Source: Planctomycetia bacterium
GTDB lineage: Bacteria; Planctomycetota; Planctomycetia; Gemmatales; HRBIN36
Assembly (NCBI GenBank): GCA_016795155.1
Contig: JAEUIE010000015.1
Location: 1-64,000 of the forward strand
DNA: 64,000 nt
Reading direction: 5' to 3'
Shown: one piece after another, positions 23,693 to 29,294 of the stretch
How positions within the stretch are numbered: position 1 is the stretch's first letter
Layout of the letters: the number at the start of each line of letters is the position of its first letter
The notes under the pieces: generated by a model
Told to the model about the DNA's origin: nothing
Seen by the model: the letters and a program-made list of their open reading frames with translations, nothing else
The model's database searches: none
Made by a program: the position numbers and the translations under genes

Positions 23693-26600
23693 CTACTTCA
23701 CATTAAAATAAGTCGCCTCCGGGTGGTGGACTACCAACGCTGACGTTGATTGTTCTGGCTCTAACTGAAACTCTTCACTCAAGGTAATCCCAATGCGCTC
23801 GGGCTGCAGCAACTGGCATAGCTTTACCTGGTCTTCCAGGTTCGGGCAGGCGGGGTAGCCGAAGCTGTAGCGGCAGCCGCGATAAGCGAGCTTGAACAGC
23901 CGTGTGACATCGGGATCGTCGTCCTGGCCAATGCCCCAATCTGTACGCATTCGTTTGTGCCAGTATTCCGCAGTTGCTTCGGCGGCTTCGACGGAGAGGC
24001 CATGCAGGTACATATATTCGGTGTAGTTGTTCTGCTCGAAGAGCTGACGGGCGCGTTCGGATGCATAACGACCGACGGTAACGACGAAGAAGCCGGCGTG
24101 GTCAATGGCTTTGCCGTTCTCCCTCGGAGCGAAGTAGTCGGCCAGGCAGAGGTTATCGCGGCCTACCTGTCTTGGGAAGTGGAAACGGAGTTTCTCAGTG
24201 TGGTAGTCATCTTCAAAGATAATCAGATCGTTGCCTTCGCCGGCAGCGGGAAAGAAGCCGTACACTGCCGTGGGGCGGAGAATATTTTCGCGGATACACT
24301 GCTTCTTCATTCGGTCGAAAAGCGGGTAGGCGGTTTCCTGCATCTGGCGTTCATACTCGGCGGGTTTGACGTTGTTCTTGCGGAATTGCCATTGCGTGCC
24401 GATGAGCGTGCGTTCGTTGATGAAGCGGAAGACTTCGGCGATGTCGATGTTCTGGACGACTTTGGTGCCGAGGAACGGGGGCTTGGGGAGGTTGGGTGCG
24501 GGTTTTAGAGTGCGTTCGACAGGAAGCGCCTGAACGGCGGCGTTATCGAACTCCTCACCCCCGACCCCTCTCCCCGGGAGGGAGAGGGGAGCCAGACCGG
24601 CCCCTGCTCCGCCAGTATAGTTATCGGCGGTGGTGCCTCTTACTGGGGGTGCCAGGGTGATGATGGGTTCGTGGTTGGCGGTGAGGGTGGCGGGTTTGTG
24701 GCCGCAGAGTTCATCCATCAGGTGCAGGCCGCTGAAAGCATCCTCGCCATAAAAGACCGGGCCGGACTGATAGGTGCGTCGGAGATTGTCTTCGACATAA
24801 CGGCGAGTGAGCGCGGCACCTCCACAGATAACCGGAATCTTGTAGCCCCGCTGTTGCATCAGTTCCAGGTTCTCTTTCATAACGACAGTCGATTTTACCA
24901 GCAGGCCACTCATTCCGATGGCCTGGGCTTTGGTCTTTTCCAGCTCTTCGAGAATGGTTTCAATCGATTGCTTGATGCCGAGGTTGTAAACCTTGTAGCC
25001 GTTGTTGGTGAGGATAATATCAACGAGGTTCTTGCCAATGTCATGTACATCGCCCTTGACGGTAGCGAGGACGATCTTGCCTTTTTCGGAACCCTCGACC
25101 TTGGTCATGTATTGTTCGAGATGCTTGACCGATGCTTTCATCACCTCGGCAGATTGCAGCACGAAGGGAAGTTGCATCTGGCCGGAACCGAAGAGATCGC
25201 CGACGACCTTCATGCCATCGAGCAGGATGGTATTGATGATGTCGAGTGGTGTATAGGTTTTGCGAGCGGTTTCGAGGTCGTCGATCAGTGTATCGCGGCG
25301 ACCCATGATGATGGCGTTTTTAAGACGTTCTTCGATGGTGCTGCCGAGATCAACCGTTTTCTTGGCGTTCGTTTTCTTTTCGCCACCAAACGATTGATAG
25401 TGAGCGATGAGTTGCTGCAAGGGATCGCCATCTTCCCGCTGATTGAGCAACAGTCGTTCCGCTAATTTGAGCCCCTCCGGATCAATCTCATTCAGCGGTA
25501 GAATCTTGCTGGCGTTCAAGATGGCGGCGTCGAGCCCCGATTCGAGAGCGAGTTTGAGGAAAACGCTGTTGACCACCTGGCGGACGTATGGATCGAGGCC
25601 GAAGCTGATGTTAGAAAGGCCCAGCCAGGTGCCCGCTCCGGGAAGTTCGGCTTTGATCCGCTTCATCGAGTTAAGTGTTTCGACGGCGGCGTTGTAGAGA
25701 TCGCTCTGCCCGGTAGAGACGGGCAATGTCAAGGGATCGAAGTAGAGATCAGTAGGCTCGACTCCATGCTCATTCACACAGATATCGTAGATACGTTTGG
25801 CGACATCGAATTTCCAGTCGCACGTGGTTGCCTGTCCGGTTTCATCGATGGTGAGAGCGACGAGGGCTGCTCCATATTTCTTAGCCAGCGGCACGATGAT
25901 ATCGAGTTTCTTGCGGCCTTCTTCGAGGTTGATCGAATTGAGGAAAGGCTTGCCGGTAATATATTTGAGCCCCTCAGCCATCACCTGCCATTCAGTGGAA
26001 TCAATCACGATGGGCAGACGGACTGCTTCGTTGAAGCGGCGGAGAACCTTGTTCATATCTGCCACTTCATCGCGGCCTGGATAGGCGACGCAGACATCGA
26101 GCAGGTGAGCGCCTTCATCTTGCTGTTCGCGTGCCATGGCGGCCATGCCCTCGATGTCGTCTGCTTCGAGGAGTTTTTTAAACTTGCGACTTCCCGTGGT
26201 GTTGGTACGCTCTCCGACGATCAGCGGCCCGGGACTCTGTTTGAGTGTTTGTGCCTGGTATAGGCTGGCGACGCTCGGTTCAAAGACAGGCGTGCGAACT
26301 TTGGGTTTGATTCCTTTGACTGCTTCGACAAGTTGTCGGATGTGTTCAAAGGTGGTACCACAGCAGCCGCCGACAATATTGACGCCGTAGTCGCTGACGA
26401 ACTGCTTGAGAGCACGGGCCAGTTCTTCAGGACGGAGCGGGAAGTGAGCTTTACCATCGACGTTTTCAGGCAGGCCTGCGTTGGGTAAGCAACTGATCTT
26501 GCGGCGGCCATAGTCGCTGAGGTGGCGGATATGGCTGACCATGAGATCGGGGCCGGTGGCACAATTGATGCCAATAATATCGATGGATAGTGCTTCCAGG

Positions 26601-27238
26601 GTAACCATCGCACTGCCAATGTCTGAACCGGCGAGCATAGTGCCCTGTCGTTCAATGGTGACTTGTGCCATCAAAGGCAGTTTGATGCCGGCCCGCTGCA
26701 TTTCTTCAACGCAGACAATGCAGACAGCTTTGAGATTGAGCAGGTCGAAAGCGGTTTCGACCAGGAGTACATCCGCACCGTTTTCGATGAGGGCACGGGC
26801 CTGCAGGCGATAGCCTTCGAGCAGTTCGTCGAAGGAAATATGACCGAGGGTAATTGACTTGGTGCCAGGTCCAATGGAGCCGATGACATAGCGGGGCTTA
26901 TCGGGAGTGCTGTACTCGGCACAGGCTTCTTTGGCGATCTTCACTGCCAGGCGATTGATCTCTTCAACCTTGTCGCCTTCGCCGAATTCATTGAGGGCGA
27001 TTTTATTGGCACCGAAGGTATTGGTCTCAACGCCATCACTGCCGACTTCCAGGAAGCCCTTGTGGATGGCGTGCACCCATTCGGGGTGGGTATAGAGCAT
27101 CCATTCAGTGCAGTTGACGAACTCCTTACCACCCCAGTCAGCATCAGTGGGGTTGTAATTGTGGAGGTTGGTTCCCATGGCGCCATCGAGCACCAGAACA
27201 CGTTCGTTAAGTAATTGCAGAAAATCGGGTTTGATCAT
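23693..27238 (-). CDS. metH: Cobalamin-dependent methionine synthase
   Basis: Transfers the methyl group of 5-methyltetrahydrofolate to homocysteine through cobalamin; 1,181 residues from the ATG at 27236-27238 (the frame extends upstream, but MIKPDFLQLLNERVLVLDGA is the family start). Domains in order: homocysteine-binding with zinc ligands (GINCATGPD and GGCCGTT) to about 320; pterin-binding (VGERTNTTGSRKFK) to about 600; cobalamin cap; cobalamin-binding with GDVHDIGKNLV, the cobalt-ligand His near 733; and the activation domain with RYSFGYPACP and HPEA near the end. The linker before the activation domain contains an in-frame palindromic repeat. It is divergent from the RluA gene by about 124 bases; no cobalamin or SAM riboswitch is apparent there. 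Confidence 0.96.
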   Translation of the reverse strand: MIKPDFLQLLNERVLVLDGAMGTNLHNYNPTDADWGGKEFVNCTEWMLYTHPEWVHAIHKGFLEVGSDGVETNTFGANKIALNEFGEGDKVEEINRLAVKIAKEACAEYSTPDKPRYVIGSIGPGTKSITLGHISFDELLEGYRLQARALIENGADVLLVETAFDLLNLKAVCIVCVEEMQRAGIKLPLMAQVTIERQGTMLAGSDIGSAMVTLEALSIDIIGINCATGPDLMVSHIRHLSDYGRRKISCLPNAGLPENVDGKAHFPLRPEELARALKQFVSDYGVNIVGGCCGTTFEHIRQLVEAVKGIKPKVRTPVFEPSVASLYQAQTLKQSPGPLIVGERTNTTGSRKFKKLLEADDIEGMAAMAREQQDEGAHLLDVCVAYPGRDEVADMNKVLRRFNEAVRLPIVIDSTEWQVMAEGLKYITGKPFLNSINLEEGRKKLDIIVPLAKKYGAALVALTIDETGQATTCDWKFDVAKRIYDICVNEHGVEPTDLYFDPLTLPVSTGQSDLYNAAVETLNSMKRIKAELPGAGTWLGLSNISFGLDPYVRQVVNSVFLKLALESGLDAAILNASKILPLNEIDPEGLKLAERLLLNQREDGDPLQQLIAHYQSFGGEKKTNAKKTVDLGSTIEERLKNAIIMGRRDTLIDDLETARKTYTPLDIINTILLDGMKVVGDLFGSGQMQLPFVLQSAEVMKASVKHLEQYMTKVEGSEKGKIVLATVKGDVHDIGKNLVDIILTNNGYKVYNLGIKQSIETILEELEKTKAQAIGMSGLLVKSTVVMKENLELMQQRGYKIPVICGGAALTRRYVEDNLRRTYQSGPVFYGEDAFSGLHLMDELCGHKPATLTANHEPIITLAPPVRGTTADNYTGGAGAGLAPLSLPGRGVGGEEFDNAAVQALPVERTLKPAPNLPKPPFLGTKVVQNIDIAEVFRFINERTLIGTQWQFRKNNVKPAEYERQMQETAYPLFDRMKKQCIRENILRPTAVYGFFPAAGEGNDLIIFEDDYHTEKLRFHFPRQVGRDNLCLADYFAPRENGKAIDHAGFFVVTVGRYASERARQLFEQNNYTEYMYLHGLSVEAAEATAEYWHKRMRTDWGIGQDDDPDVTRLFKLAYRGCRYSFGYPACPNLEDQVKLCQLLQPERIGITLSEEFQLEPEQSTSALVVHHPEATYFNVK
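24551..24593. repeat. Palindromic CCCCTCTCCC-type repeat inside metH
   Basis: The sequence ctcctcacccccgacccctc (24551-24570) continues into a hairpin with arms CCCCTCTCCC (24565-24574) and GGGAGAGGGG (24580-24589), loop CGGGA. This is the form of the widespread intergenic repeat often seen as CTCACCCC..CCCTCTCCC..GGGAGAGGGG. Here it lies inside metH and is translated in frame as part of AGLAPLSLPGRGVGGEE, in the linker between the cobalamin and activation domains. Confidence 0.75.
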
Positions 27239-27362
27239 GATTGATTGTTCATCACGTCTGGAGAGGAGACACGAATGAACGAGGTGTGGTTCAGTTGAGT
27301 GTACTACATCATTAGAATAGCATGGAATAAGGGATTGGACGAGTGAGGTGCATTCAAATCGC

Positions 27363-28106
27363 ATGTCAAAGTCAGAGTATTCAGCCGGTTTTACTGTCTT
27401 ACGCGAAGATCAATGGTGTATTGCCGTGAGTAAGCCAGCGGGCTTGTTGACGCAAGCACCGCCGGGAATTGACAGTCTTGAATCGCGAATCAAGAGATAT
27501 TTGAGTAACACTCGCAAAATGGAAGAGGTTTATCTAGGAGTACCGCATCGGCTGGATCGGCCTGCGAGTGGATGCATGATCTTTGCAAAAACCAGGCTGG
27601 CCGCCAGGCGACTGGCGGAACAATTTCAACAGCGTCGGGTAAGAAAAGTTTACTGGGCACTGGTGGAGGGGCTGGTTGCTCAGCCTTCAGGGCATTGGGT
27701 TGATTATGTACGCAAAATCATCGATGAGCCACGTGGCGAAGTGGTAGCAAAGGATGAGCCAAATGCTCAGCGTGCTGAACTTCGTTATGAATGCCTGGAA
27801 AGAAATAGCGACTTTTCGTGGTTGCAAATTGAATTGCTCACCGGCAGAATGCATCAGATCAGATTGCAGGCCAGCACACGGGGGCATCCTTTGAAAGGCG
27901 ATTTGCTATACGGCGCCAGGACTACGTTTGCAGCAGTGTATGAAGATCCCCGATTCAATGCCATTGCACTTCATGCCAGGAAACTCGAACTGGTACACCC
28001 GGTTACGGAAAAACCACTAGTGATTGAAGCACCCGTGAATGAAGTCTGGCAGCAACTGATTGGTGAAAAAGAAAATAATGGAACGCTAACCACGAGAGCC
28101 GTGTGA
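27363..28106 (+). CDS. RluA-family pseudouridine synthase
   Basis: Protein of 247 residues converting uridines in rRNA or tRNA to pseudouridine. The catalytic aspartate is Asp65 in PHRLDRPASG, in the classic HRLDxxTSG-like context, and the C-terminal half has LTGRMHQIRLQ and GHPLKGDLLYG. There is no N-terminal S4 domain, so it resembles the short RluA/TruC-type members. The start is the ATG at 27363; a GTG at 27348 in the same frame is an alternative. The gene is divergent from metH, and a 225-base intergenic stretch follows its stop. Confidence 0.9.
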   Translation: MSKSEYSAGFTVLREDQWCIAVSKPAGLLTQAPPGIDSLESRIKRYLSNTRKMEEVYLGVPHRLDRPASGCMIFAKTRLAARRLAEQFQQRRVRKVYWALVEGLVAQPSGHWVDYVRKIIDEPRGEVVAKDEPNAQRAELRYECLERNSDFSWLQIELLTGRMHQIRLQASTRGHPLKGDLLYGARTTFAAVYEDPRFNAIALHARKLELVHPVTEKPLVIEAPVNEVWQQLIGEKENNGTLTTRAV

Positions 28107-28134
28107 CGTGCTTTTGAGAACCCGTTTTTAAAGG

Positions 28135-28271
28135 GGGACGTTACCGACCTGGCTTTTGGATCCTACCTCGGGTAGGCGTGCAAGCCCCAGATACGAGTGA
28201 ACATCCCACGGGTACTCTTATCGGTTCGTCAAAAGTAGTCACGCATCACGAGAACCGCAGAGTAACGTTCC
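28135..28271 (+). ncRNA. Candidate structured RNA in convergent gap
   Basis: The 225-base interval between two convergent genes contains nested complementary segments. A closing stem pairs 28135-28144 with 28262-28271 (GGGACGTTAC with GTAACGTTCC, one G-U). Inside lie, in order, an arm of GGCTT (28151-28155) with AAGCC (28182-28186) capped by CCTACC-TCG-GGTAGG (28162-28176), a stem ATACGAGT (28191-28198) with ACTCTTAT (28213-28220, one mismatch), and CGGTTC (28222-28227) with GAACCG (28252-28257). Together they form a multi-branch junction. The G-U pair favours the plus strand. No known RNA family, promoter or terminator was recognised; found by eye, so chance folding is not excluded. Confidence 0.3.
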
Positions 28272-28331
28272 ATTCCAAGTAGGATAGCATGTAGAGGTGA
28301 GTTGGGGTAGGTCGGTTTCATCCTGTCAACA

Positions 28332-29294
28332 TTATCCAAACAGATGCTTGGCCCAGCCAGCAGCGCCGATGTAGCCAGCTTTTTCAGCCAGGGATGCATA
28401 CTCTATTCTGGTGTTCTGTGCCGGCACCGGGAATGCAATGCGCAGTATCTGCTCACGAATCTGCTCTAGAAACTTCGGACCGGCAGCGACACTCATTCCG
28501 CCACCAAAAAGAACGATATCTGGATCAATCGTGTGCATCATGCAGGTGGCGCCAACAGCCAGTGAATATGCAGCATCATCTACTATTTTCTTTGCAAGCG
28601 CATCGTTCATCTCAGCTGCCCGAAACAAAGTTCTTGCATTAAGACCTTCTGATTGAACCAACTGGCTGAGCATTGTCGGTGGCGTTGCCTGTATTTCTTC
28701 GGTCATTATTTTTCGTAAAGCCGTTTCACTGGCATAAGCCTCTAGATGGCCAGTATTACCGCAGCCACACATTCTTCCACCAAAAGCCTGGATGACAATG
28801 TGACCAACCTCGGAGCCGTGGCTGTGCTCGCCTTCAATGATCTTTTTGTCCCAGATGATTCCACAGCCAATTCCAGTACCCAGTGTGAACAACACCAGGC
28901 TGCTGCTTCCCTGTCCTGCTCCAGCCCAGAATTCACCGTAGGCAGCAGCGTTGGCATCATTTTGAAAGGCGGTTGGTTTGCCGAGTTTTTTCTGAATGTG
29001 ATCGCGGACTGGAATGTTTCGCAAAGTGGGCATATTGACGGGATGCGTCATGATTCCCTTGGGAATATCCATAAGTCCCGGGGTTGCTACGCCAATGGCC
29101 TTGATGTCGTTTATGCTGACTGTTGCCTTTTCAATCGACTGATGAATAGAGAGTTCAACTTGACTAAGAAACACATCGGCGCCGAGTTCTGATTTTGTCG
29201 GAACGATGGAAATATCTTCTACGGGTTGGCCTTTGTAATCAACCACGCCCGTTTTGATGGTTTGCCCACCAACATCAACACCGATGTAATACAT
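28332..29294 (-). CDS. ROK family sugar kinase
   Basis: ATP-dependent hexose kinase of 320 residues, glucokinase-like. The phosphate-binding DVGGQTIKTGVVD is at the N-terminus, catalytic Asp113 lies in QNDANAAAYGE, and the ROK zinc cluster includes His165 (SEVGH), Cys176 and Cys178 (MCGCGN). The third Cys of the usual CxCGxxGCxE is His183 (TGHLEAY), a conservative change that could still bind zinc. The absence of an N-terminal helix-turn-helix rules out a NagC-type repressor. It is the last gene of a nine-gene run and lies 28 bases downstream of the PfkB kinase. Confidence 0.9.
   Translation of the reverse strand: MYYIGVDVGGQTIKTGVVDYKGQPVEDISIVPTKSELGADVFLSQVELSIHQSIEKATVSINDIKAIGVATPGLMDIPKGIMTHPVNMPTLRNIPVRDHIQKKLGKPTAFQNDANAAAYGEFWAGAGQGSSSLVLFTLGTGIGCGIIWDKKIIEGEHSHGSEVGHIVIQAFGGRMCGCGNTGHLEAYASETALRKIMTEEIQATPPTMLSQLVQSEGLNARTLFRAAEMNDALAKKIVDDAAYSLAVGATCMMHTIDPDIVLFGGGMSVAAGPKFLEQIREQILRIAFPVPAQNTRIEYASLAEKAGYIGAAGWAKHLFG

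Follow-up and report, generated by a model that had tools for sequence, protein, structure and literature searches.

The established view of 6S RNA is that it mimics an open promoter and blocks the RNA polymerase holoenzyme, then serves as template for a pRNA, after which it refolds and comes off the enzyme (PMC8876501, PMC4227106). In both B. subtilis and A. aeolicus, the 3' strand of helix P2, once freed, has been inferred to pair with the distal part of the 5' bubble as a central-bubble-collapse helix (PMC8876501, PMC4227106); in E. coli, release involves a hairpin of 9 pairs within the 3' bubble (PMC8876501). The locus described here lies in a planctomycete contig, within the 64,000-nucleotide stretch of DNA that was analyzed as a whole (the window). 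By far the best explanation, and one about which we have very little doubt, is that an unusually wide intergenic gap in this window houses a 6S RNA gene, the only one of the genome, on the minus strand at about 28274-28065, whose RNA would act by the established 6S mechanism.

The gap measures 225 bp (28107-28331), and its width is an outlier among the convergent gene pairs of the window. To its left lies a plus-strand gene for an RluA-type pseudouridine synthase (27348..28106, 252 aa), recognized from the ORF list and homologue alignments; to its right, upstream of the 6S gene and on the same strand, lies a minus-strand ROK-type kinase gene (28332..29294, 320 aa, from the ORF list), whose family name is that given in the first-pass annotation, plus the visible sequence. 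The flanking ORFs end at 28106 (+) and 28332 (-), with no ORF of 60 or more codons between them, as the first-pass annotation had described. The tightly spaced convergent pairs it cited for comparison are likewise as quoted wherever both ORFs are visible (7083/7076, 18086/18097, 21101/21102, 51550/51553 and 60022/60019). At its other end, the RluA-type ORF (GTG start) overlaps the start of a minus-strand ORF of 1223 aa (23693-27364) head to head by 17 bases (27348-27364). RluA homologues align only from residue 14-17 of the RluA-type ORF, and one start of this overlapping pair probably lies further in. A protein-based look-up for RluA relatives in named genomes returned none.

Scanned by E-value, the interval 28000-28450 yields a full-length match to the 6S/SsrS family of Rfam, RF00013, on the minus strand (28266-28083, model positions 1-187, E 6.2e-8); the next best family in the interval reaches only E 4.9. 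At 44.8 bits the match lies 1.6 bits short of the gathering score of 46.4, such that the RNA qualifies as a full-length member by E-value but not by the curated cut-off, and a whole-window Rfam scan at the gathering threshold returned zero matches because this one scores just below it. Across the 68 contigs of the genome (5.28 Mb), it is also the sole RF00013 match at E <= 10. A held-out covariance model, for which 31 relatives but not the window were used, recovers 28264-28083 on the minus strand at 113 bits (E 8e-29); its next best match in the 64-kb window scores only 6 bits. The comparison with Rfam that had been proposed for this gap therefore names a family, where the first-pass annotation had recognized no known ncRNA.

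That annotation had instead read the gap as a new branched RNA transcribed from the plus strand, a four-way junction closed by 28135-28144 / 28262-28271; such an RNA might be a riboswitch or sRNA. The 10-pair complement between these segments, with one G-U, is indeed present in the sequence. However, the minimum-energy structure of the plus strand is not the proposed multi-branch junction, and the branched structure is unsupported because the plus-strand gap folds only as well as its shuffles (-64.8 kcal/mol, where dinucleotide shuffles average -65.25 and 107 of 200 do as well; z 0.10). Further, no plus-strand Rfam match of any weight occurs within 28000-28450, and both conservation and covariation track a 6S structure on the minus strand, one that extends beyond the gap into the RluA frame. 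We regard a branched plus-strand RNA as extremely improbable. What survives of the earlier reading is that this outlier gap holds a structured, conserved ncRNA with compensatory changes; its strand, branched fold and borders do not survive, the RNA being a minus-strand, unbranched rod with a central bubble. A formerly unknown branched RNA thus becomes the identified gene of a global regulator.

The 6S RNA is conserved among relatives of the window's genome. RF00013 finds a match in 85 of 101 genomes of the window's family and order (its own included), above the gathering score in 71 of them, with relatives' scores reaching 78 bits. Stretches around about 70 of the relatives' matches were fetched for comparison. 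They share a strong consensus, made up of CCUCUGCGGUGUUCGU (5' side), CUUUUGnCGAACCGAU (P2 and template region), GCUUGCAAGCCCACC...GUAGUGGGAUCC (apical part), GCGGGUUCUCAAAAG and ACGGCACAGGUGGAGG (3' side), the last with a U-run after it in most. As a DNA pattern, this consensus occurs in 32 records of the named collection, all titled as planctomycetes and many as Gemmataceae or Gemmatales, including Gemmata and Fimbriiglobus. Among 33 aligned sequences, pairing holds in 95.8% of cells, and 21 of 48 pairs are altered on both sides (99 such cells), with covariation values that none of 500 shuffles attained; sliding the 3' partners by 1-3 columns lowers pairing to 36-52%. The conservation and compensatory stem changes that the first-pass annotation had suggested looking for are both found, then, and the latter belong to the minus-strand 6S structure. 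RluA and ROK genes adjoin the 6S gene in none of the relatives' stretches: the RNA is conserved, its gene neighborhood is not.

Two weak RF00013 matches among these genomes (G002:C22 and G006:C49, 17-18 bits) lack all of the signature letters of 6S RNA and were set aside as spurious; G002, a member of the window's family, has a 6S gene elsewhere that scores 143 bits by the order's own model and 47.1 bits by Rfam. A separate feature, absent from the window, is a short hairpin with a GNRA loop (GCAA, GCGA, GAAA or GUGA) found just before the 6S core, 26 bases upstream of its CCTCTGC, in at least 10 relatives (L004, L009, L012, L014, L017, L023, L026, L028, L042 and L043). Seven of its nine stem pairs are changed on both sides in ten sequences picked for having the hairpin, and 0 of 500 shuffles reach the covariation score. 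In several relatives the hairpin follows a -10-like box, and the transcript would therefore begin with it; a 5' GNRA hairpin of this kind has, to our knowledge, not been described for any 6S RNA.

In the window, the putative 6S (SsrS) transcript (28065..28274, minus) is placed by the RF00013 match, the held-out model and an extended fold, its ends being predicted from the closing stem, a -10-like box and a U-rich run. The minus-strand segment 28274-28062 reaches -78.1 kcal/mol, an energy that none of 200 shuffles matched (z -4.23), and its fold is a rod of closing stem, central bubble and apical stem, the same architecture as in the 33-sequence consensus. The bare gap is unremarkable on this strand (z -0.63) because it cuts off the 3' end of the RNA; the structure is visible only with the right borders. 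The outer closing stem pairs AAUGGAACGUUA (28263..28274, minus) with UAGCGUUCCAUU (28077..28088, minus) in a 12-pair duplex of -14.6 kcal/mol. Immediately after it, the U-rich run AUUUUCUUUUUC (28065..28076, minus) may mark the 3' end; many relatives have U-runs at the equivalent place, and a terminator scan found none at the locus. Expression could start from an extended -10-like element, TGcTATCCT (28281..28289, minus), 6 nt upstream of the predicted start A28274. A strict sigma-70 consensus scan found no promoter at the locus, and no convincing -35 box lies upstream of the window's 6S gene; in many relatives the 6S core is preceded by a -10-like box, which is often accompanied by a cTTG -35-like box. 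Further in, helix P2 joins CUUUUGACGAACC (28223..28235, minus), also the presumed pRNA template, to GGGUUCUCAAAAG (28111..28123, minus), as placed by the RF00013 alignment, the consensus and the held-out model. The inner closing stem reads CUCUGCGGUUCUCGUGA in the window against CCUCUGCGGUGUUCGUGA in the order consensus, with several non-standard pairs in the held-out-model alignment. Two members of the window's family, L032 and L033, have a very stable outer closing-stem extension of their own (-30.5 kcal/mol), unlike the window's 12-pair stem in sequence. The 3' end of the 6S RNA runs antisense to the final 42 bases of the RluA frame. The closest RluA homologues' alignments stop at residue 235-238 of 252, leaving the tail after about residue 237 (28059-28106) without counterpart, and the overlap therefore falls in a non-conserved tail.

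The divergent closing stem, the lack of a good -35 and a score below that of most relatives would also suit a decayed 6S pseudogene, whose closing stem has diverged and whose flanks have changed. However, this is the only 6S copy in the genome, and a perfect outer stem of 12 pairs, with its U-run, makes up for the divergence of the closing stem; L032 and L033 show that long outer stems of unrelated sequence occur elsewhere in the same family, and the signature positions of the bubble, P2 and apical stem are intact. We therefore consider decay very unlikely. Slightly less credible still is membership of a different 6S-like class, for instance that of the core-polymerase binder Ms1: although Ms1 is structurally related to 6S RNA (PMC9130861), it is described from Actinobacteria, whereas the RNA of the gap matches the 6S model and carries a 6S-like pRNA-template segment, GAACCGAU; no other Rfam family scored.

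A functional 6S RNA thus remains the preferred reading, and its expected mode of action can be laid out on the predicted structure. The central bubble of the rod would imitate an open promoter, and the housekeeping-sigma holoenzyme would be bound and blocked at growth stop. Once nucleotides are back, the polymerase would copy the bubble into a short pRNA, predicted as AUCGGUUCGUCAAAAG (28220..28235, in plus-strand letters, copied from the 6S RNA rather than from DNA). By analogy with characterized 6S RNAs, synthesis is predicted to start opposite the U at 28220, with first letters AUCGGUUCG; the pRNA of E. coli begins with the same first letters, AUCGG. The corresponding template segment, GAACCGAU, is present in the 6S RNA of the window. 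Synthesis of the pRNA would open helix P2, and the freed P2 3' strand (ACGGGU, 28120..28125, minus) could then pair with the 5' bubble (ACCCGU, 28208..28213, minus) in a central-bubble-collapse helix, leading to polymerase release. The complementarity of ACCCGU and ACGGGU is retained in most relatives. Its mean score over 64 sequences is 7.06. Shuffling the letters lowers it to 5.14; exchanging the 3' strands among sequences, a control that ignores kinship among them, gives 6.73, with 6.98 as the maximum of 200 swaps. The excess over the swaps is small because the 3' strand hardly varies. These values are suggestive of a conserved collapse helix in the window RNA and its relatives.

In a sample of 392 genomes from across the phylum, 172 have an RF00013 match (E <= 0.01, strict filters), and the true number of carriers is probably higher because the filters are strict. 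The order's own model adds divergent candidates (L118-L125, E 1e-17 to 3e-3) in members of the class for which this survey gave no Rfam match, including G457 (E 1e-17), G469 and G453; several of these candidates are matched by Rfam as well, at 32-47 bits. This distribution bears on a small open point. PMC5673643 gives 6S RNA as absent from Pirellula staleyi and Rhodopirellula baltica, citing a 2014 survey, and as not found in Thermogutta terrifontis; the divergent candidates may fill part of this reported absence. We think it possible, although on balance somewhat doubtful, that the 6S RNAs of Gemmatales-type planctomycetes are a subclass of their own, not described to date and marked by order-specific motifs in the closing stem, release by a collapse helix and lineage-specific additions. 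If so, the additions would be the extended outer stem of the window's family and the 5' GNRA hairpin of some relatives, and the subclass would sit in a phylum in which some species are reported to lack 6S RNA.

Set against the known systems, the RNA of the gap is well supported as a new member of the 6S family with a locally rebuilt closing stem, and ordinary in kind. It resembles the 6S RNAs of RF00013 in its length, rod shape, central bubble, P2 and apical stem, and in its conserved template segment of the GA-CCGA type; it differs from them in a score just under the curated threshold, in the order-specific consensus (CCUCUGCGGUGUUCGU..., ...ACGGCACAGGUGGAGG), from which it in turn departs in part, and in the added 12-pair outer stem. 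With the 6S RNA of E. coli it has the overall architecture in common. With those of B. subtilis and A. aeolicus, to judge from their published description, it may also share a potential collapse helix, as predicted here.
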